DNA of 34,744 bases from an uncultured Pirellula sp. (GTDB lineage: Bacteria; Planctomycetota; Planctomycetia; Pirellulales; Pirellulaceae), in contig CAIYZV010000439.1 of NCBI GenBank assembly GCA_903930765.1, positions 1 to 34,744 of the forward strand. Reading direction: 5' to 3'. Shown here in pieces: positions 3,933-13,106 of the stretch; the stretch's first letter is position 1, and every line of letters begins with the position of its first letter. A model generated the notes under the pieces. The model made no database searches, was not told the origin of the DNA, and worked only from the letters and a program-made list of their open reading frames with translations. A program made the translations under genes and the position numbers.

Positions 3933-6155
3933 ATGGCTTCGCCGATTGGAATTGACAGCAAGACGCCATTGCAACTCGTTCCGGGAATCGGCGCGCAAAA
4001 AGCCAGCCTTCTGGAACGCCTCGGGCTTCGCCGCGCCATCGATTTGCTTTTTTTCTTCCCACGCACCTACCAAGATGTCCAGCCCTGGAGCACGGCCCTA
4101 GAGCTGACTGAAAACATGCGTGCCTGCGTGCTCGGCACTGTGATCGATATGGATTCGCGATTCGGCTTCGACGGCCGCAGTTCCGTCGGCTTGCTGCTCG
4201 AGATCGAAGGGGGCGGCTACCTCCGATGCGTTTGGTACAACCAACCGTTCCGACGAGAGCAGTTTTCGATCGGCCGGCGAGTATTGGCGACCGGGGTTGT
4301 CAAATCGAGCGGTGTCGCATTACAAATGCGACACCCCGAAGTCCTTCTATTGGCCGATGGCGAGGAGCCACCTCCCGCAAAACCGATCCCGATCTACCCG
4401 CTGACCGAGGGACTCCAGCAGCGGAACGTGGCCCAATCAATCGCTGCCGTCATGCCATTGATCGAGAACGTTGAGGAAGCACTGCCGCTGGAGGTGCGCG
4501 AACGCGCCGCACAGAAACTTGCATGCATGCTCTCGGCAACTTCGAGCTCTGGCAAATCAAACCTAACGTCGTCGGAATCATCTTTATCAAGATTACCTCT
4601 GTTTGACGGGGATACGGCCGAATCCGCCCCACCGAAGCTTCTCTCGATCCATGATGCGCTCCGCATGATCCACCAACCGGAGACAATGATCGAGGCCCAC
4701 GATGCTCGTTTGCGATTCATCTTTCAAGAACTCTTTGTGCTCCAGTTAGCACTTGCGATGCATCGCCACAAAACTCAATATTCGAAACCTGCACCGAGTA
4801 TTCCTTCGAACGCAATGGTGCACGCTCGAATCCTGAAACGCTTCCCATTCGATTTGACCGGAGATCAAACCCTCGCCATCGAAGACATTCGGCGCGACAT
4901 GGCTCGCGAAATACCGATGAATCGTTTGATCCAAGGAGACGTCGGCACCGGCAAAACGGCTCTCGCTCAGTATGCCATGCTCAGCGCGGTCGCGAATCAC
5001 TATCAAGCCGCCATGATGGTCCCGACGGAACTGCTCGCAAGGCAGCATCACCGCAAGCTTTGCGAGCAACTCAAAGACAGCAAGGTCATGATCGAACTGC
5101 TGGTCGGTTCTGTTTCCGGCAAAGACAAGCGAGAACTGCTTCAGCGGATTGCGATAGGTACTGTTGATATCGTCGTCGGCACCCAAGCCCTCATCGGTGA
5201 ACATGTCGAATTTGCGAAGCTAGGTCTCCTCGTGATCGATGAGCAGCACCGTTTTGGTGTGGAGCAACGCGCTAGTTTAAGAAAGTCTCGCACGGTTCCC
5301 CACTATTTGGTGATGACCGCCACACCGATACCTCGCACGCTCGCCATGACCGTTTTTGGAGACCTCGATGTTTCCATCTTGAGGCAGCGTCCACCCGGCC
5401 AATCGGTCGTTCAAACCTATGTTTCCGAACCAGGCCAACAGGAGCGTTGGTGGAACTTTGTCTTGGAACAAGTCCACTCGGGACGACAAGCGTTCGTGGT
5501 TGCACCCCGAGTCGAAGCGACCGGCGAAGAGGATGCTGCAGGTGAATCGGCAGGCGCCATTCAGCAATGGGAGCACCTTTCGCATGGTCCGCTTGCGGGA
5601 TTGCGTGTCGGACTGGTGCACGGGCGCATGGATGGAGAAGAAAAGCAGCAAAAGCTTGACGACTTTGTCTCTGGTAAGATCCAGGTACTGGTCGCAACGA
5701 CGGTCATCGAGGTCGGTATCGACGTCCCCAACGCATCGGTAATGACGATCTTGGACGCAGATCGATTGGGATTAGCACAACTCCACCAATTGCGAGGCCG
5801 TGTTGGCCGAGGTCGATTCCCGGGCTACGTGTGCTTGTTCCCACGCTCGGATATCGGGGATGAAGAACTCGAGCGCCTCAAGCTGTTCGCCTCCAATCAC
5901 GACGGCTTTGCCCTCGCTGAGCTCGATCTCAAATTGCGAGGCCCCGGGGAATTGCTCGGCACACGCCAAAAGGGACTTCCAACCCTCCGCATTGCAGATC
6001 TTTCTCGCGATGCCGAGATCCTTCAATTGGCCCGATCCCTTGCATGCGAGATCATCGCGACCGATCCGCTATTGAATTTGCCGGAACATGCGAAACTGCA
6101 TCGTCAAGTCGTCGCCAAGCATGGCGCGACACTGGAGATCAGCGACGTCGGTTGA
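3933..6155 (+). CDS. recG: ATP-dependent DNA helicase RecG
   Basis: 740-residue superfamily 2 helicase that remodels stalled forks and branch-migrates Holliday junctions. The N-terminal helix-hairpin-helix-like start (LVPGIGAQKASLLERLG) and the OB wedge domain (about 60-150) precede the motor. Helicase motifs are FPFDLTGDQ (Q/0 region), Walker A GDVGTGKT, DEQHRFG as motif II, VMTATPIPRT as motif III, VGLVHGRM and VLVATTVIEVGIDVPNA as motifs IV-V, and QLRGRVGRG as motif VI. The TRG-like RGPGELLGTRQKGLP follows. A Ser-rich insertion near residues 205-235, between the wedge and motor, looks disordered. No Shine-Dalgarno precedes the ATG. The 3' end overlaps the convergent small membrane gene by 17 bp. 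Confidence 0.96.
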   Translation: MASPIGIDSKTPLQLVPGIGAQKASLLERLGLRRAIDLLFFFPRTYQDVQPWSTALELTENMRACVLGTVIDMDSRFGFDGRSSVGLLLEIEGGGYLRCVWYNQPFRREQFSIGRRVLATGVVKSSGVALQMRHPEVLLLADGEEPPPAKPIPIYPLTEGLQQRNVAQSIAAVMPLIENVEEALPLEVRERAAQKLACMLSATSSSGKSNLTSSESSLSRLPLFDGDTAESAPPKLLSIHDALRMIHQPETMIEAHDARLRFIFQELFVLQLALAMHRHKTQYSKPAPSIPSNAMVHARILKRFPFDLTGDQTLAIEDIRRDMAREIPMNRLIQGDVGTGKTALAQYAMLSAVANHYQAAMMVPTELLARQHHRKLCEQLKDSKVMIELLVGSVSGKDKRELLQRIAIGTVDIVVGTQALIGEHVEFAKLGLLVIDEQHRFGVEQRASLRKSRTVPHYLVMTATPIPRTLAMTVFGDLDVSILRQRPPGQSVVQTYVSEPGQQERWWNFVLEQVHSGRQAFVVAPRVEATGEEDAAGESAGAIQQWEHLSHGPLAGLRVGLVHGRMDGEEKQQKLDDFVSGKIQVLVATTVIEVGIDVPNASVMTILDADRLGLAQLHQLRGRVGRGRFPGYVCLFPRSDIGDEELERLKLFASNHDGFALAELDLKLRGPGELLGTRQKGLPTLRIADLSRDAEILQLARSLACEIIATDPLLNLPEHAKLHRQVVAKHGATLEISDVG

Positions 6156-6483
6156 TGTTCCCCAGCCAACCCCGGAACAACGCAATGCCGATCGCGATCA
6201 AAAGGAATGGGCCGGTGATCCATATCGTCTTTCGGTTGTAAAGAAAGAGTCCGACCGCCACGGTGCAAGCCACCAAGAGCATCGCCCCGCCAGGAGCGCG
6301 ACGAATCGCCTCCAGCCCTGGCCACGCCAACCACATGCAGATCAATACCAAGCCAACCTTGCCAAAGGTATCCGAAGCCAGCCAGCGCTGTCCGTCCCAA
6401 ACCATAGGTGCAAATCGCATGGACAGCCCTAAAACCAGGAAGGTCACGCCTATCCCAAATGCCAACCACCGTGGGCTCACCAT
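6139..6483 (-). CDS. small integral membrane protein, unknown function
   Basis: 114 residues with about four hydrophobic segments: near residues 5-25 (LAFGIGVTFLVLGLSM), 42-55 (VGLVLICMWLAWPG), 66-83 (AMLLVACTVAVGLFLY) and 86-104 (TIWITGPFLLIAIGIALF). It ends in NINRRR, which suggests a cytoplasmic basic tail. I recognise no family. The ATG at 6483 overlaps the TGA of the upstream pseudoprotease gene by one base (TGATG), so I prefer it to an ORF extension at 6510. This makes it the distal gene of the HtrA-like cluster, and it may supply a membrane anchor or partner for the exported proteins. That role is inference from position only. Confidence 0.7.
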   Translation of the reverse strand: MVSPRWLAFGIGVTFLVLGLSMRFAPMVWDGQRWLASDTFGKVGLVLICMWLAWPGLEAIRRAPGGAMLLVACTVAVGLFLYNRKTIWITGPFLLIAIGIALFRGWLGNINRRR

Positions 6484-8591
6484 CAGTACGCCTCTAACAA
6501 TCGAAGCCACCTCTGGAGTGGTCCCAGCACCGGGGACTCAGCGATCTTTGCTACCTCGACCTCGGTGCTACTGCGCTGCACGGCATACCCCGCGCCGCGT
6601 GCAACCTCGACAAACCGATCGAGCGATTTTTCTTTCCCGTTCACGAAGAATTGGATTGCTTTAAAGGGCTCGCACGGTGGCATCCGAATTTGCTGAGGTA
6701 GCTTTGGATTGCACAGCCATACCCCCCTCACCAACTCGGGGTTCTGGACCGCGGTGATATAAGCGAGCAACGAACCGGATTCGACACCGCCGAACGCGAT
6801 CCGCCTCGGATCAATGTTGTAGTTCTGAGTCAGGTACGATTGGAGTCGCTGTCCGATCTCGATCTCATCGAACGACCAGCCTTTTTCATCCGCCGATTGC
6901 GCAACCGCCACAATCCAGCGATGCTCCCGGGCAAATACATCCCACGCGTTCGACCATTGCGTTTGGTTCTGTGCGCCAGCTTCACCGAACAGGACTAGCA
7001 CACCGTGAGGTATATCCTCTCGATAGTTCGTCGGAACGATCGCAAAGGCTTTGTTTTTGACATCGCCAAGGGGCAGTTGCACCGTCCCTTTGCTTGTCTC
7101 CTTGCCTGGATTCGCCTCCTTCGAATCCGCAGGCTTGCTTTCCTCCGGTAATTTCGGTCGATAATCCCATTCGAGATCGCTCTCAGGTCTCGCCTTCAAC
7201 TGCAGATCCACTGTCCGTTCCGATTGGTCTGCACCCCGAACTTTGAGCATGACACGCTCTCGGTAGTCCTTCGATGCCAATCGGGATTCGATCGGATGCG
7301 AGCCGTCGATGACCTCTCCTCCGATTTCCAAAATCTCATCACCCACCGACAGCCCCGATTCCTTCGCCGGCGACTCTGGAATCAACCCGCTGATCCGCGG
7401 CCCCGATCCAGTGGCACCACCCGTCTCCGATGCGATGGGCTCGACCAAAATCCCCAAATAGGGTTCGCGGTACGTCGGCAACTCCTTGATCAACTGGCAC
7501 TCGAACGATTTCCGTTCCCCATTGCGATCCACGACGATCGCCATGGTTTGTCCGGCATCCAAGGGTCCCAGGATATGCTTGAGCTGCGAATGGTTTTCGA
7601 TCGGTTGCAACCGATCTGAGCGGTTCCCGAGCGCGACGATTTTGTCACCCGTCATGATCCCAGCTTTTGCCGCAGGAGAGCCAGGCGTCACGCCTTGCAG
7701 CACCACCGGCTCGGAATACTCGTTATTCCCTCGCCAACGAAAACCGATGCGCCCAGGGTGGATGTCTTCTCCTTGCTGCATGCGCGGCAGACGGTCGAGG
7801 ATATCTTGGATCGGGATCGCAAAGCCGATCCCGGAGTCGTACCACTGCTCGACCTCTCCTTCGGTCACAATTCCAGGGTTCAGCGGCGTCAAGATCCCCA
7901 TCGCTCGACCGCGCAGATCAATCACAGGACCACCGTAATTTTGCGGTGAAATCTTTGCATCGGTTTGGATGGCTTTGTTCCACACGCGGCCGGTCGCGCT
8001 CAAAATCCCGACACTGCAACTCGCACTCTGAGGATCGAAGGTCTTGCCCAAGGCCATCACCCATTCACCAACCTGCCAACCCGCTCGATCGCTCACCGAA
8101 ATTGGCTTGAGCGGGCTATCGACATCGATCTTGAGCAACGCCAACTCGCGGCTCAAGTCCCGAGCGACCAACTTCGCGGGCTTGCGCTGTTGGTCGGGCA
8201 AGACGACGGTGATCGATGCCGGCTGGCCTCGAAATTGAAACGTGCTCGTAATGATCCATCCGTCCGCTGACAAAACAGTACCGGTCGACGGACCTTTCGC
8301 AGCCAACTGTTGATTCACAATCTCGGAACCACCAAAGGTCTCCACCTGCACTACGGAATCCTGAGCGTACAGCGTCGCCGCTTGAAAGGCCGCTTGCTCC
8401 AATTCCGACAACGGTGGCGCCGCAGCAATCACCCCAGTAGACATCACAGCGACCGCCCCAGTAGACATCACAGCGACCGCCGCCGTACCCATCGATCGAA
8501 TCCATCGGCCAAACGCATGCCAGAAACCCAGCATCTGAATTGCTCCAACCATCGGTAAATCCGCCGCACCCTTGGTCGTCCTACGCATCAT
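6483..8591 (-). CDS. HtrA-like pseudoprotease with two PDZ domains and a degenerate alpha/beta-hydrolase domain
   Basis: 702 residues, exported. After a signal segment with a duplicated AVAVMSTG unit comes a trypsin-like S1C domain (about 75-260), in which each catalytic position is replaced. The His site in LTNxHV reads ITSTFQF (Phe 118), the Asp site reads RELALLKI (Glu 149), and the GNSGG site reads SPQNYGGP (Tyr 219). Two PDZ domains follow (about 292-367 and 377-467), then a Pro/Lys/Glu-rich linker and an alpha/beta-hydrolase-like domain (about 515-702). There the nucleophile elbow reads FGGVESGS, with Glu 604 at the Ser position and no evident late catalytic His. It is therefore probably a binding or scaffold protein. 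The ATG at 8591 overlaps the previous stop as ATGA. An open extension to 8780 lies inside the neighbour and is rejected. Confidence 0.88.
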   Translation of the reverse strand: MMRRTTKGAADLPMVGAIQMLGFWHAFGRWIRSMGTAAVAVMSTGAVAVMSTGVIAAAPPLSELEQAAFQAATLYAQDSVVQVETFGGSEIVNQQLAAKGPSTGTVLSADGWIITSTFQFRGQPASITVVLPDQQRKPAKLVARDLSRELALLKIDVDSPLKPISVSDRAGWQVGEWVMALGKTFDPQSASCSVGILSATGRVWNKAIQTDAKISPQNYGGPVIDLRGRAMGILTPLNPGIVTEGEVEQWYDSGIGFAIPIQDILDRLPRMQQGEDIHPGRIGFRWRGNNEYSEPVVLQGVTPGSPAAKAGIMTGDKIVALGNRSDRLQPIENHSQLKHILGPLDAGQTMAIVVDRNGERKSFECQLIKELPTYREPYLGILVEPIASETGGATGSGPRISGLIPESPAKESGLSVGDEILEIGGEVIDGSHPIESRLASKDYRERVMLKVRGADQSERTVDLQLKARPESDLEWDYRPKLPEESKPADSKEANPGKETSKGTVQLPLGDVKNKAFAIVPTNYREDIPHGVLVLFGEAGAQNQTQWSNAWDVFAREHRWIVAVAQSADEKGWSFDEIEIGQRLQSYLTQNYNIDPRRIAFGGVESGSLLAYITAVQNPELVRGVWLCNPKLPQQIRMPPCEPFKAIQFFVNGKEKSLDRFVEVARGAGYAVQRSSTEVEVAKIAESPVLGPLQRWLRLLEAY
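8432..8479 (-). repeat. 24-bp perfect tandem duplication in a signal peptide
   Basis: A 24-bp unit at 8432-8455 is repeated exactly at 8456-8479. On the minus strand each copy encodes an eight-residue AVAVMSTG-type segment in the hydrophobic core of the export signal of the pseudoprotease, so the duplication lengthens the core in frame. Confidence 0.92.
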
Positions 8592-9739
8592 GGTCGCACC
8601 TGAATCTTGATCAGCTCTTGGCCCCTTTGCACGAGCACTGCGAACGAATCGCCGCGGTTGATCGTGGACAAGATACGTTCTAATCCTTTTCTGGAATCGA
8701 CGCGAGAATCGTTGACCAGCAGAATTAGATCGTTCGACTTGAGTCCCGATCTGGCTGCGATGGAGTCCTCTCGAATCCAATCGATAAAAGCGGGGGTCTT
8801 CGGAATAACATCTGGGATCAAAGCAATCCCCAAATCGTTCAAACGATGGGGTTGCGGGACCGCTTGCGTGTTCGCTGCAGCCACGTTGGCTTGTCCGGAC
8901 AAAATGCGGTCGACCGAGTTCTTAACAACATCCATCGGCAACGCGTAGTTGAGCCATATTCCCGCTTGTTCGTCGCGCAGTTCTTTACCCACGATCCCGA
9001 CCAATCTTCCCGACAAATCGATCAGCGCACCACCGGTCGCCCCAGGATTGTTGGTCATCACGTCCACCACAATGACCCGGCCTTGATACAACGTTTTCAT
9101 GGCCCCTTTGCGCGTAGTCAACGGAGACATCGCCATCACGACCCCCTTTTGAGAACTGCACGCTTCGTTTCCCGCTGCAATCCCGAACAGATTGGTGATG
9201 GCAAAGACGCGCTGTCCAATTTTGGCGATGTTTTGCGGATCCAATTCGAACCCAAGGAGCCCCGAGTCGGGTACTCGCAGCAAAGCCAATTCGCATTGCG
9301 GATCCACGCCAGCAATCTCAGCATCGAGCCGGCGACCATCGAATGTAACCACGCGAACCTTGTCCACATCGAGCACCGTGCTCCAACTGGTCAAGATCAA
9401 CGAGCCGTCTCCGATGACCACGCCGCTCTGATAGCTCTCCAATCCGCGTGCACCACCCGCCCCATAGAGCTTGACCACCGAGCGTTCCGCGCGACCAAGT
9501 AGTTCTTCGAGGTCGGTTTCCTCCAGTGGCACTTTGGTGTCGGCGATTGGGGCTGTGTCCAGGGCTCCGTCAAGATCTATAGCTGCGTTGTTGTTCAGCG
9601 GATCCGCATCTCGGAGAGGGGAGGCCAGCTCCACTTCCTCGCAGGCATCGATGGGACCTCGCGCGAGCGATTGTGTTGGGCCATTGGCCAAGAACACGGC
9701 TACGGTAACGACAAGAAATATTGGCACGCAAAGCTTCAC
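8588..9739 (-). CDS. HtrA-like pseudoprotease with one PDZ domain
   Basis: 383-residue exported protein. The signal peptide MKLCVPIFLVVTVAVFLANG is followed by an acidic linker, an S1C trypsin-like domain (about 78-275) and one PDZ domain (about 300-383). The catalytic triad is lost at every position. The LTNxHV site reads LTSWSTV (Ser 120 for His), the Asp site reads PQCELALLRV (Glu 150), and the GNSGG site reads NPGATGGAL (Thr 235 for Ser). The oxyanion-loop surroundings are otherwise well kept, so the fold is likely intact. The start is a GTG at 9739 with a strong Shine-Dalgarno (AGGGAGG, 9749-9755) lying in the end of the upstream protease gene. The genes are 2 nt apart. Peptide binding through the PDZ domain, or partnership with the active paralogue, is the likely role (inference). 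Confidence 0.88.
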   Translation of the reverse strand: MKLCVPIFLVVTVAVFLANGPTQSLARGPIDACEEVELASPLRDADPLNNNAAIDLDGALDTAPIADTKVPLEETDLEELLGRAERSVVKLYGAGGARGLESYQSGVVIGDGSLILTSWSTVLDVDKVRVVTFDGRRLDAEIAGVDPQCELALLRVPDSGLLGFELDPQNIAKIGQRVFAITNLFGIAAGNEACSSQKGVVMAMSPLTTRKGAMKTLYQGRVIVVDVMTNNPGATGGALIDLSGRLVGIVGKELRDEQAGIWLNYALPMDVVKNSVDRILSGQANVAAANTQAVPQPHRLNDLGIALIPDVIPKTPAFIDWIREDSIAARSGLKSNDLILLVNDSRVDSRKGLERILSTINRGDSFAVLVQRGQELIKIQVRP

Positions 9740-9741
9740 GA

Positions 9742-11697
9742 TCAGTCGCCTCCCTTCTCTTTGCCAGACTCAATCACCGTTGCTGGCTCCCACTCCGAGC
9801 GCACGACATCGACCACCAATCGTGTTTCCAATCCGTAGGCCAACCGGATTCGCTCAGGAATCTCTTTGCCGTTGTTCTGCTGAACTTTTTCGAAGTAAAT
9901 CTCGGCGGGATCGGATTGGTTGTCGGTGAAAAGTTCGATGCATTGGATGGTCCCTGTCTCCGGAGCGGTGTAAACAACTGCGTCGACTTCTCCCAACGTG
10001 ATTCGCGTTGTATCGAACAAGCCGGCTCGTCCGACCAGCGGACTCCGTCCGATATAGATAGCCTCACCCATCCTGCGAGGGCCCGATTCATGCCATTGCT
10101 GCCACGTTCGGATAGCGAACGCGAGTGGAACGAGTGACTGCTGCTGAATCCACGGAGTCCAGCCTCGCTTCGCATCCACCGCTTCTGTTTTGTCACCGAG
10201 CGTGAAACCGAGCGAACTATCGGTGACCCGGATTTGAACGTTGGTCGTTTCCCCGACAACGGTACCAGCCAGTACCCACGCCTCCTCGGACTTGGGCCAT
10301 TGATTGCGAGGCTTCTGAAGTCCGACGATCCGATCGAGCTCGACGCGATTGAAGTAGTAATTGCTAAAGCCACGTTTGGTCTCATAGCGATCCGCAAGTG
10401 CATCTTTCTCTTTGGGTAGAGCGCCTTCTTTTTTGCGCACTCCTTTACCTTGGGGTGGGGTGCCTGGGCCTGGTTCTTCGGCATCAGGTTTTTCCTCCGG
10501 TTCCTCTTGTGGGCTTTTCGGAGGGGCTTTTGGTTCTTCGCTGGATTCCCCTTTGACGATTTCCTCAAGTTCGATTGGCAGATGGAGATTCTGCAATCGG
10601 ATCGCGGTATCGACGGTGTCTGTGTCGTTTCGGAAACGGAGTGCGACTCGCCACTGCGGCGGGAAAATTCCGGTGACGTTTTTCAATTGGTTCGTCGTAC
10701 CGATCTGCCGATCGTCGAGTCTCAAGATCTCATCGCCGTACCGTAAACCGCGACGATAAGCATCGCTCGATTCCAGAATATTGGAAACGGTGACTTTTCC
10801 TTTTGTGTCTGTTGCCACAGTAAATCCGAGCGTCGCATGGTCGAGGACACGACCGGATCGCAAATGCCAAAAGAAGTTCATGGCTTGTCGTATCGAGATC
10901 GCATAACCGACACCCACGTTGACGCGCCCCCGCTTTTCAAACGAACATCTTCCATTGATCCCAATCAATTCCCCTTGGGCGTTGAAAAGCGGCCCACCGG
11001 AATTTCCGGGATTGATCGCGGCATCGGTTTGAATGCAGTCGCTGTATTCGAGGATAGTACCCGCTGGATATTGATACCGGCGCACACCGCTGATCAGTCC
11101 GTAGGTAACCGTCGGCTGCAGGTTGGTTGCCAAAACAAAAGGATTGCCGGCCGCAAAACACCACTGCCCAACGCGCACGCGGTCACTATTCCCAATCTTC
11201 GCAACCGGAAAATCGTCGCGTCCAAACATTTTGATCACGGCTAAATCGCCGGTTGGATCGATCCCCGCGACGACTGCTTCATACATCTTTCCATCGTTGA
11301 GACCGCATCGCATCCGATGTCCGAAGGGACTCGATACGTGAAAGTTGGTCAGCACATAGCCATCGGGTGTGATGCAAACGCCACTCCCGCCACCTTGGCC
11401 ATCCACCCCAAAAACACCGACGGTGGCTTGTGCGGCCACTCGCATGGCTTCAATGCGCTGTTTTTGAGCTTCCAATACCTCGGCAGCTGGTTCCGGCTGG
11501 GCTGGTTGTAATTGGGCTGGTTGTATTTGGGTGGGGCCTTCGCCTGGGGATTGCCCGATCGCGCGGGAACGGGTGCACTCGAGCACCAGCGAACTGAACA
11601 CCAAAAGCCAAGCGATGGCTAACTGGAAGCCGAGGGGGCCTCCTCGGCATTTCGCAGACGCGTTGCATACGATCGACGTTTTGATCGATTTTTCCAA
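9742..11697 (-). CDS. HtrA/DegP-like serine protease (S1C) with PDZ and a novel C-terminal domain
   Basis: 651-residue exported protease for envelope protein quality control. A hydrophobic segment (about 25-40) serves as signal. The S1C domain (about 85-280) has an intact triad: His 120 in VLTNFHV, Asp 151 in GDLAVIK, and Ser 233 in NPGNSGGPL. A PDZ domain follows (about 286-368), then a Pro/Glu/Lys-rich disordered linker (about 383-436) and a roughly 210-residue C-terminal region that I do not recognise. DegP normally has a second PDZ domain and ends near 450 residues, so this architecture is longer and different. The start is a TTG at 11697, with an in-frame stop six codons upstream and no good alternative. 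It is the first gene of the cluster and is followed by two catalytically dead paralogues. Confidence 0.9.
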   Translation of the reverse strand: MEKSIKTSIVCNASAKCRGGPLGFQLAIAWLLVFSSLVLECTRSRAIGQSPGEGPTQIQPAQLQPAQPEPAAEVLEAQKQRIEAMRVAAQATVGVFGVDGQGGGSGVCITPDGYVLTNFHVSSPFGHRMRCGLNDGKMYEAVVAGIDPTGDLAVIKMFGRDDFPVAKIGNSDRVRVGQWCFAAGNPFVLATNLQPTVTYGLISGVRRYQYPAGTILEYSDCIQTDAAINPGNSGGPLFNAQGELIGINGRCSFEKRGRVNVGVGYAISIRQAMNFFWHLRSGRVLDHATLGFTVATDTKGKVTVSNILESSDAYRRGLRYGDEILRLDDRQIGTTNQLKNVTGIFPPQWRVALRFRNDTDTVDTAIRLQNLHLPIELEEIVKGESSEEPKAPPKSPQEEPEEKPDAEEPGPGTPPQGKGVRKKEGALPKEKDALADRYETKRGFSNYYFNRVELDRIVGLQKPRNQWPKSEEAWVLAGTVVGETTNVQIRVTDSSLGFTLGDKTEAVDAKRGWTPWIQQQSLVPLAFAIRTWQQWHESGPRRMGEAIYIGRSPLVGRAGLFDTTRITLGEVDAVVYTAPETGTIQCIELFTDNQSDPAEIYFEKVQQNNGKEIPERIRLAYGLETRLVVDVVRSEWEPATVIESGKEKGGD

Positions 11698-12044: not shown

Positions 12045-13106
12045 TTGGAGTCCGGTACGGCAGCGTTCTTACAGCCAGCCACTGTAAACCGACTCGATCT
12101 CAAAAGGAGCGAACCCATCCAATCCCTCGAACCCATCCTTGAAGTGGAAGGGATCCACAAAAGCTATCGGGCCAACCGCGTGCTCCGCGACATCAACCTG
12201 ACACTTCCGCCCGGTGTGGTTGGGTTGCTCGGGCCGAATGGATCCGGAAAAAGCACCTTGATCAAAGCCATCCTCGGTTTGGTTTCGGTCGATGCTGGAC
12301 GGGGTCGCATCCTGCAGTTTCGTTGGCCGGAACAAACAAGGGCCTTGCGAGATCAGATTGGATACTTGCCCGAGGACGATTGCTATCTCCAAGGTCTCCA
12401 GGGGATCGAATCGATTCAGATGATGGCGAGGCTGTCGGGATTGCACCGCACCGAAGCGCTGAGGCGATCGCACGAAGTCGCCGACCTATGCGATCTCGAT
12501 CAAGAGCGCTATCGCAACGTGGAGACCTATTCGACGGGAATGCGGCAGAAGTTAAAATTCGCACAAGCCCTCGTTCACGACCCGCAATGGTTGATCCTGG
12601 ACGAACCGACGACAGGTCTGGACCCATCCCAGAGAGAGCAATTCTTGAGTCGCATCGATACCTTGGCAAAAGAAAAGGGGAAATCCATTCTCCTGTCGAC
12701 TCACATCCTGCACGATGTCCAGCGGGTCTGCGACCACGTCGTGATCCTCGCCAAGGGGGAGATACGGTTGGTCGATACGTTGGCCCGGTTGCAGCAGCCG
12801 ACCCAAGCGGGATTGCAGGTCGGAGTCATCTCCGACGTAGAGCGATTCATGGTTGCTCTAACGCACTGTGGGATCCAATCCAGACGCACCGGCGCATGCG
12901 AACTTCAAGTCCTAGGGGATGGCCCTGAAATCGTAAAACGGATCTGGAGCACGAGCTACGAAACGGGAATTCCAATCCAGCGAATCGATCAAGCTCGCAA
13001 TTCCCTCGAGCAAGCGTTCCTCGATGCCATTCGGGATTCATCGCGAGTAACCATGGGCAACCCGGTGGCGATCGACAACAAAGCATCTTTACCGGAATAC
13101 AGGTGA
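12045..13106 (+). CDS. ABC transporter ATP-binding protein (first pair)
   Basis: Up to 353 residues, a cytoplasmic ATPase subunit of an ABC-2 type exporter. Walker A GPNGSGKST is at about 63-71, followed by a Q-loop region, the signature YSTGMRQK, Walker B WLILDEPTTGLD and the switch His in LLSTHILHD. All look functional. A C-terminal extension of about 100 residues, typical of ABC-2 ATPases such as the NatA/CcmA types, follows. The start is uncertain. The frame opens with TTG at 12045, without a Shine-Dalgarno. The only strong Shine-Dalgarno, AAAAGGAG at 12102-12109, is followed 7 nt later by an ATC at 12117, which is in frame and lies just before the conserved domain. The gene ends 6 nt before its permease. 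Confidence 0.88.
   Translation: MESGTAAFLQPATVNRLDLKRSEPIQSLEPILEVEGIHKSYRANRVLRDINLTLPPGVVGLLGPNGSGKSTLIKAILGLVSVDAGRGRILQFRWPEQTRALRDQIGYLPEDDCYLQGLQGIESIQMMARLSGLHRTEALRRSHEVADLCDLDQERYRNVETYSTGMRQKLKFAQALVHDPQWLILDEPTTGLDPSQREQFLSRIDTLAKEKGKSILLSTHILHDVQRVCDHVVILAKGEIRLVDTLARLQQPTQAGLQVGVISDVERFMVALTHCGIQSRRTGACELQVLGDGPEIVKRIWSTSYETGIPIQRIDQARNSLEQAFLDAIRDSSRVTMGNPVAIDNKASLPEYR

Follow-up and report, generated by a model that had tools for sequence, protein, structure and literature searches.

A conserved trio of HtrA-fold genes in planctomycetes joins one catalytic protease with two predicted pseudoproteases

Introduction

HtrA proteases are usually seen as homo-oligomers whose own PDZ domains switch their own active sites, and the known members DegP, DegQ and DegS are described as active homo-oligomers. 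A contig of 34,744 nucleotides from an uncultured Pirellula sp. of the order Pirellulales and the class Planctomycetia (CAIYZV010000439.1, in the 5.74 Mb, 527-contig, 96% complete assembly GCA_903930765.1), which at its full length we call the window, encodes beside one HtrA-like protease, g1, two further proteins of the same fold, g2 and g3, in which all three residues of the catalytic triad are replaced. What would two dead copies of a protease do beside a live one? An earlier note on this DNA had proposed that g2 and g3 have been retained as pseudoproteases and are not in decay, and that they might enter mixed complexes with g1. Here we follow that proposal through the fold, the catalytic positions, the distribution and the gene neighbourhood of the trio.

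Results

The three genes, read as open reading frames (ORFs), lie head to tail on the minus strand in the order g1-g2-g3, and all trio coordinates given below are on that strand. The catalytic HtrA-like protease g1 (9742-11697) has 651 aa from a TTG start; after a gap of 2 nt, between the end of the g1 stop codon at 9742 and the start of the g2 GTG at 9739, follows g2 (8588-9739; 383 aa), which overlaps g3 (6483-8591; 702 aa from ATG) by 4 nt (ATGA), with the g2 TGA at 8588-8590 lying inside and the g3 ATG at 8591. Each protein matches Trypsin_2 over the whole profile (E = 2.3e-30, 8.9e-20 and 7.5e-20 for g1, g2 and g3), with protease domains at 10957-11388, 8993-9427 and 7893-8285, respectively, and each has PDZ_2 above the cut-off. 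There is one PDZ domain in g1 (about 10600-10830), one in g2 (about 8597-8776), which ends after it, and two in g3 (PDZ1, about 7494-7754; PDZ2, about 7236-7394). The ORFs, their codons and the Trypsin_2 and PDZ_2 matches bear out the three adjoining S1C-plus-PDZ genes of the earlier note; its mention of 'both PDZ sets' was loose as to the number of PDZ domains. The N-terminus of g2 was judged by eye to be of Sec type.

Single-chain AlphaFold2 (AF2) models were confident for g1 (predicted local distance difference test, pLDDT, 84.7; predicted template modelling score, pTM, 0.85) and g3 (pLDDT 88.2, pTM 0.82), and in structure searches both matched DegP, DegQ, DegS and Rv0983. The g1 model aligned to Rv0983 (2z9i) with Z 32.3 and a root-mean-square deviation (rmsd) of 3.9 over 280 residues, and the g3 model to Rv0983 (1y8t) with Z 27.0 and rmsd 4.0 over 275. 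These searches used the whole models, and the match lists were filled by the protease domain. The C-terminal domain of g1 (window 9745-10407), which belongs to no known family, is conserved and confidently modelled, mostly as strands; it had no Pfam match at E 1, and its matches to sequences in the PDB were weak (best E 0.19).

The C-terminal domain of g3 (6486-7169, approximate limits), modelled as alternating strands and helices, is of a different kind. A profile of it (A4, 31 rows) matched the esterase LC-Est1C (3wyd; E 3.6e-12) and polyhydroxybutyrate-depolymerase/feruloyl esterases, which marks it as an esterase-like alpha/beta-hydrolase domain. At its nucleophile position, the window has Glu604 (6780-6782), within G-V-E-S-G-S. 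Among 144 alignable rows, i.e., those with Gly two residues before (32 of 176 rows were dropped for having no such Gly or no domain), this position is Ser in 16, and otherwise E (31), Q (31), G (26), D (12), A (12), R (10), K (4), T (1) or F (1). As read from the alignment, the C-terminus of g3 is a second dead enzyme domain within one protein, its nucleophile Ser being replaced in most alignable relatives. Short g3 frames (about 340-460 codons), into which the esterase domain cannot fit, are many outside the class and few inside it.

In the window, the triad of g1 is His120 (codon 11338-11340), Asp151 (11245-11247) and Ser233 (10999-11001). The same positions are Ser120 (9380-9382), Glu150 (9290-9292) and Thr235 (9035-9037) in g2, and Phe118 (8238-8240), Glu149 (8145-8147) and Tyr219 (7935-7937) in g3, the codons being placed by hand from the ORF starts. 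The earlier note had made the same readings, and alignment confirmed them: in HMMER alignments to solved HtrA-type chains, the S, E, T of g2 and the F, E, Y of g3 face the catalytic H, D, S. Intact triads displaced by misplaced gaps, which the note had named as the finding that would overturn it, were ruled out by these alignments and by others with 59 rows for each gene.

To follow the triads through relatives, we used four sets of loci, i.e., fetched relatives, named genomes, a class set (A) and a phylum set (B), which overlap, so that their counts are not additive; triad counts refer to copies covering the positions, with partial copies left out. g1 reads HDS in every covered copy (56/56 fetched, 61/61 named, 20/20 class and 18/18 phylum), and the full triad occurs in no covered copy of g2 or g3 in any set. 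In the fetched set, g2 lacks the His in all 59 rows, keeps the Asp in 3 and the Ser in 10, and has lost all three residues in 46; at the nucleophile, Ala is the commonest residue (39), and Thr is found in 6. All three residues of g2 are lost in 60 of 70 named, 5 of 20 class (15 of which keep the Asp) and 18 of 20 phylum copies, where the g2 of two loci (L306 and L308) aligns His at the first position with Gly and Gln at the other two.

The pattern in g3 is tighter. All three residues are lost in 58/58 fetched, 79/80 named (the lone exception aligns His), 17/17 class and 19/19 phylum copies, and the nucleophile is Tyr in 58/59, 80/80, 17/17 and 19/20, respectively. This Tyr stands within NYGG in 56/59 fetched, 80/80 named, 17/17 class and 19/20 phylum rows, and the stricter SPxNYGGP is found in 54, 76, 16 and 15; the phylum-set exception (L313) is not a g3 at all, but part of a g1-g2 fusion. 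The residue two before the nucleophile, which we take to be the oxyanion Gly in active HtrA, also varies in g3. A near-constant Tyr motif of this kind is what a functional residue would show. Judged by their sequences, g2 and g3 are HtrA-fold pseudoproteases, not HtrA enzymes.

Could g2 and g3 nevertheless be catalytically competent through unusual residues, such as Thr235 of g2 or another Ser? The Thr and Ser found at the g2 nucleophile in 6 and 10 of the 59 rows speak for this, but the base His is gone in every g2 row and in all 58 covered g3 rows, the g2 nucleophile is mostly Ala and g3 has Tyr, and we regard such catalysis as very improbable. Of the 17 Trypsin_2 matches in the window's genome, three belong to the trio; eight more, in which the alignment reached every triad position, read HDS, and six (L002, L011, L014-L017) were unreadable.

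Searches for g2 and for g3 covered 60 genomes, i.e., the window's own and 59 relatives, from which 60 loci were fetched. All three genes are visible in 56 of these, and order and strand are kept in 56 of 56; the other four are contig-end stretches or have the trio split across contigs. Among the 56 is a second, divergent trio from each of two genomes (L133 in G044 and L134 in G029), with a g3 that is short. In one genome of the same genus (G003, 77% complete) no match of trio strength was found, and the genome G031 has g3 at a contig end and no g2 of trio strength. In a class sample of 297 genomes, requested at 90% completeness or more, the g2 profile (E <= 1e-50, counted by hand) matched in 257: 91/94 in the order, 95/95 in family f22, 64/68 in f23, 2/2 in f24 and 5/5 in f26. 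Two of the four f23 misses (G171 and G239) show short frames that match the g3 profile in its C-terminal part alone, and some misses may therefore be broken assemblies. In a phylum sample of 244 genomes, 58 had a g2 match at 1e-35, of which 20 lay outside the class.

The arrangement was also kept at greater distance. g1 and g2 were found in all of 20 chosen class loci (19 from other families, 1 from the order), 17 of them with an adjoining g3; the three remaining genomes have a strong g3 elsewhere (E 9.3e-220, 7.7e-179 and 2.6e-132). All 20 non-class loci likewise have g1 and g2, and 19 have g3, L313 showing none in its stretch. Strand and order are kept in 17/17 loci of the class set and 19/20 of the phylum set. 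A scan of named genomes, by which phyla other than the planctomycete one were covered, returned at least 559 relatives of g3; the best 80, taken as loci, bear the names of planctomycete groups except for two labelled only 'bacterium', at least 23 of them repeat fetched loci, and strand and order are kept in all 67 that have the three genes. One of these loci (L207) is from the cultured Blastopirellula marina DSM 3645. As to a mobile origin of g3, a tblastn search of 72,556 plasmid records gave a match in 628 of them, none of which reached 60% identity or covered 80% of the query, and this origin was rejected; the annotated matches among five listed were Do/DegQ-type proteases.

Selection on the three genes was measured as the ratio of nonsynonymous to synonymous substitution rates (dN/dS; Nei-Gojobori) in ten unsaturated pairs, three further pairs being saturated for some genes. 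For the protease and PDZ domains, dN/dS was 0.014-0.039 in g1, 0.014-0.065 in g2 and 0.036-0.108 in g3; for the C-terminal domains it was 0.070-0.215 in g1 and 0.016-0.105 in g3. g3 is somewhat less constrained than g1, yet far under 1. A quick maximum-likelihood tree was built from 116 domains, 36 from each of the three genes and 8 from own-genome paralogues. In it, g1, g2 and g3 each form one side of a branch (97, 100 and 100 in the Shimodaira-Hasegawa-like approximate likelihood-ratio test, SH-aLRT), and one of the paralogues, which has a long branch, is placed with g1 (support 82). Since the three branches are separate and deep, the three lineages are old. The second trios L133 and L134 group in the tree with L297 and L303, two trios from outside the class, a possible sign of transfer between lineages.

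These data bear directly on whether g2 and g3 are decaying duplicates of g1. One genome of the 60 (G033; L046 and L105) has an internal TAG in g3 in its assembly, as decay would produce; order-wide retention, the dN/dS values of 0.014-0.108 and the deep separate clades contradict it, and we give decay next to no credence. The comparison of gene order and the dN/dS values, both suggested as checks in the earlier note, thus came out in its favor, and apart from G033 there was no sign of the cluster being confined to one strain or broken by frameshifts in close relatives. Because of the order-wide conservation, the purifying selection and the nearly fixed replacement motif, the reading of g2 and g3 as retained pseudoproteases, not decaying copies, is strongly supported by the sequences compared.

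If g2 and g3 are retained, do they act on g1 by direct contact? In seven loci (L160, L306, L308, L309, L311, L313 and L315), g1 and g2 form a single reading frame of 861-1290 codons, stop to stop. In front of the g2 protease domain all seven lack a hydrophobic segment (the highest Kyte-Doolittle mean over 12 residues is 0.54-1.16); by the same measure, a segment of 2.0 or more is present in 96 of the 104 unfused g2 frames. Since this segment is missing in all seven, they look like real fusions in which g2 has lost its own signal peptide. As natural joinings of the two frames, they argue for an association of g1 with g2. The mixed complexes of the earlier note hence become likelier for g1 with g2, the complex itself being a step beyond the fusions.

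Alternatively, g2 and g3 may be exported PDZ adaptors or scaffolds that act beside g1 in a shared pathway without being subunits of a g1 oligomer, and that bring ligands or clients to the MoxR/vWA machine described below. The PDZ domains are kept in both proteins, the hydrolase-like domain of g3, with its nucleophile mostly lost, looks like a binding module, and in three genomes g3 is encoded away from g1 and g2, as would suit an adaptor. Against this, the seven fusions argue for direct association of g1 with g2, and g3 has kept the whole protease fold, not the PDZ domains alone. We consider the adaptor role possible, if on the unlikely side.

What does the trio serve? In one relative (L325), the genes before g1 (L325:190-13307, upstream of the trio) are, in order, MoxR, DUF58, a BatA/von Willebrand factor A (VWA) gene (u5), u4 (841 aa), DUF4175 (u3b), u3, u2 and NPCBM (u1). 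The Pfam matches are to AAA_3 (6.5e-64), DUF58 (6e-47), BatA (1e-16), DUF4175 (3.5e-8) and NPCBM (5.8e-24); u4, u3 and u2 gave no convincing family match. The neighbourhood was followed in 20 extended loci of 20-kb stretches, including the query sources L320 and L325. u4 and/or u3b lie upstream on the same strand in 15 of the 20 (L318-L329, L332, L333 and L335), and the stretch reaches DUF58 in 8 and MoxR in 6; of the others, L316 shows u1 only, L331 a weak u1 only, and L317, L330 and L334 nothing.

The gene nearest to the trio, u1, could be followed more widely, in loci whose stretch runs 1.3 kb or more upstream of the g1 match (25 of 180 were left out as too short, and one without a g1 match; the sets overlap). 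It precedes g1 in 29/31 order/family, 18/19 class and 48/63 named loci, in 12/19 phylum loci (five more have u2 or u3), and in 10/22 loci of the same genus. Flanking ORFs recur across loci, and some of the flanking clusters are shadow frames. In the window itself the trio is not linked to MoxR: the matches to MoxR, DUF58, u5 and u4 are on other contigs, and upstream of g1 lies a divergent ABC transporter (12045-13106).

A third possibility is that g2 and g3 have each taken on a new activity other than proteolysis, such as metal binding, and are near g1 only through a shared pathway. MamO of Magnetospirillum is a pseudoprotease whose protease domain binds metal (PMC4794232). MoxR AAA+ proteins typically work together with vWA proteins on their protein targets, and some such partners, NorQ/NorD among them, insert metal (PMC9976466, PMC13036017). 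The nearly invariant Tyr of g3 would also suit a specific role. On the other side, a gene for an intact protease is linked in every locus with a readable g1, which suggests a role related to proteolysis, and we hold a separate new activity to be improbable.

At the other end of the trio, the ATG of a small membrane-protein ORF, g4 (6139-6484, minus strand; 114 aa from ATG), overlaps the stop codon of g3. g4 had no family match in the family-model scans of the window's proteins. Of the 60 fetched loci, 10 showed it 3' of g3 by tblastn, and all 10 belong to the same genus; a small ORF of L325 used as a tblastn query matched only itself among 20 loci. A BLAST cluster that includes g4 spans 35 loci, its position having been read in a few only. 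As a matter of sequence matches, conservation of g4 is established within the genus only. The earlier note was silent on g4, on the esterase-like domain of g3 and on the MoxR-type cluster that adjoins the trio in many relatives.

Discussion

In many planctomycetes the two dead copies are strictly preserved together with a working protease, often beside a chaperone-like gene cluster, and so they probably serve as functional components of a single machine. The explanation to which we give an even chance is a hetero-oligomeric HtrA of the envelope, in which g1 is catalytic and g2 and g3 are pseudoprotease subunits that set its activity, serving a Bat-type MoxR/vWA system. It builds on the conservation of the trio, the lost triads, the purifying selection, the gene order, the fusions and the MoxR linkage in relatives. 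The three HtrA-fold proteins would be exported, as their N-terminal hydrophobic segments suggest, and would act as one unit. g1 would be its only catalytic subunit; g2 and g3, as ancient, purpose-built pseudoproteases, would most likely stand in a hetero-oligomer with g1 in the envelope, where they would supply PDZ ligand-binding surfaces (and g3 also the surface of its dead esterase) and so set the activity of g1. In many relatives the MoxR-DUF58-BatA (Bat-type AAA+/vWA) machinery has its genes just upstream; the unit would serve this machinery, and would probably trim or quality-control the proteins matured or remodelled by it. A proteolytic arm to clear away failed MoxR/vWA clients would fit, although this is a guess.

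Several observations weigh against this explanation. The decay of g2 is less uniform than that of g3: 10 of 59 rows still have the Ser, 15 of the 20 class copies still have the Asp, and two distant copies align His. No fusion takes in g3 (none in 120 + 60 loci). The trio is, on present matches, patchy beyond the class and not universal, and within the class g2 at trio strength is found in 0 of 32 sampled genomes of family f21, which may be Isosphaeraceae, and in 0 of 1 of f25. The stretch fetched beside the trio does not take in the MoxR cluster in the window's genus, nor in G032, G036 or G376, and linkage to it does not prove contact. In favor of the link, on the other hand, u4 gave no match at 1e-30 in three genomes of the order (G052, G229 and G298) that lack g2 and g3 at trio strength, and three in which the trio is detached (G005, G032 and G036) have a u4 match; in f21, four of five tested genomes have only a distant u4 (about 1e-50) and the fifth (G112) none, and the f25 genome has a distant one only. 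This apparent co-loss of trio and u4, seen in three genomes with one u4 query, is suggestive. Even the nearest precedent, to return to the points against, shows no mixed protease trimer: activation of MamE by MamO needed the TauE domain, not contact of the protease domains (PMC4794232).

That precedent is nevertheless instructive. MamE and MamO have been studied by experiment: MamE-dependent proteolysis in Magnetospirillum requires MamO, whose triad is dispensable, and pairs of an active and an inactive HtrA-type protein arose independently in three magnetotactic groups (PMC4794232). As described there, MamE/MamO and MamE1/MamE2 resemble the trio in placing an active HtrA-type protease and a triad-degenerate partner in the same genomic region; the likeness to MamE/MamO is one of functional analogy, and a partner needed without catalysis of its own is a feature of MamO. 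The planctomycete proteins score far lower than the magnetosome models demand: against the curated cut-off of 800 bits the NCBIfam models for MamE and MamO gave 102.5 and 55.1 bits with g1, 33.8 and 34.7 with g2, and 86.3 and 25.2 with g3. Pfam TauE had no match in g2 or g3 at E 0.1. Unlike MamE/MamO, the trio has two pseudoproteases, a dead esterase-like domain in g3, g1-g2 fusions and, in relatives, MoxR linkage, and it is spread over most sampled genomes of one class and scattered others.

The other systems to be compared share single features with the trio. DegP, DegQ and DegS, HtrA proteases of the S1C family, have the same chymotrypsin fold with PDZ domains, and a full triad as in g1; the trio differs in that two of its three genes lack a triad, and in the large C-terminal domain of g1, which has no sequence relatives. 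Mixed complexes of protease paralogues are known in ClpP/ClpR and Deg5/Deg8, but Clp has a different fold and in Deg5/Deg8 both subunits are active. The Bat/MRP-type MoxR operons of Bacteroidetes and others begin with MoxR, DUF58 and BatA/VWA in the same order as the cluster of the relatives and affect stress tolerance; the sections of that paper used here leave an HtrA trio unmentioned, and the planctomycete cluster runs on through u4, DUF4175, u3, u2 and NPCBM to g1-g2-g3 (PMC11834572). A survey of microbial PDZ proteins records multiple copies in planctomycetes, and the words 'inactive' and 'Rhodopirellula' are absent from its main text (PMC6411480).

The earlier note had known of no system of this exact form. 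A description of the trio was likewise not found in the open-access literature, judged from the titles and starts of abstracts among the matches listed, but the note had missed the MamE/MamO pair of an active and an inactive protein. The active/inactive HtrA pair is already known as an idea; a trio with two pseudoproteases was not found described.

A bolder form of the hetero-oligomer is also conceivable, in which the mixed HtrA is obligate, e.g., a g1-g2-g3 trimer with one live and two plugged sites, and is an ancestral envelope machine of the class, coupled mechanically or functionally to the MoxR AAA+/vWA complex, with the dead protease and esterase sites serving as ligand sensors. Such a machine would join ATP-driven remodelling in the cytoplasm or membrane to ATP-independent proteolysis outside. 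We consider this bolder form decidedly unlikely as it stands.

Should the hetero-oligomer with g1 as its catalytic subunit prove true, the planctomycete trio would be a natural system in which ligand sensing is separated from cutting. An apparently uncharacterised planctomycete MoxR-type cluster would gain a testable proteolytic arm, and the presence of the trio in the cultured Blastopirellula marina opens it to pull-downs and deletions.

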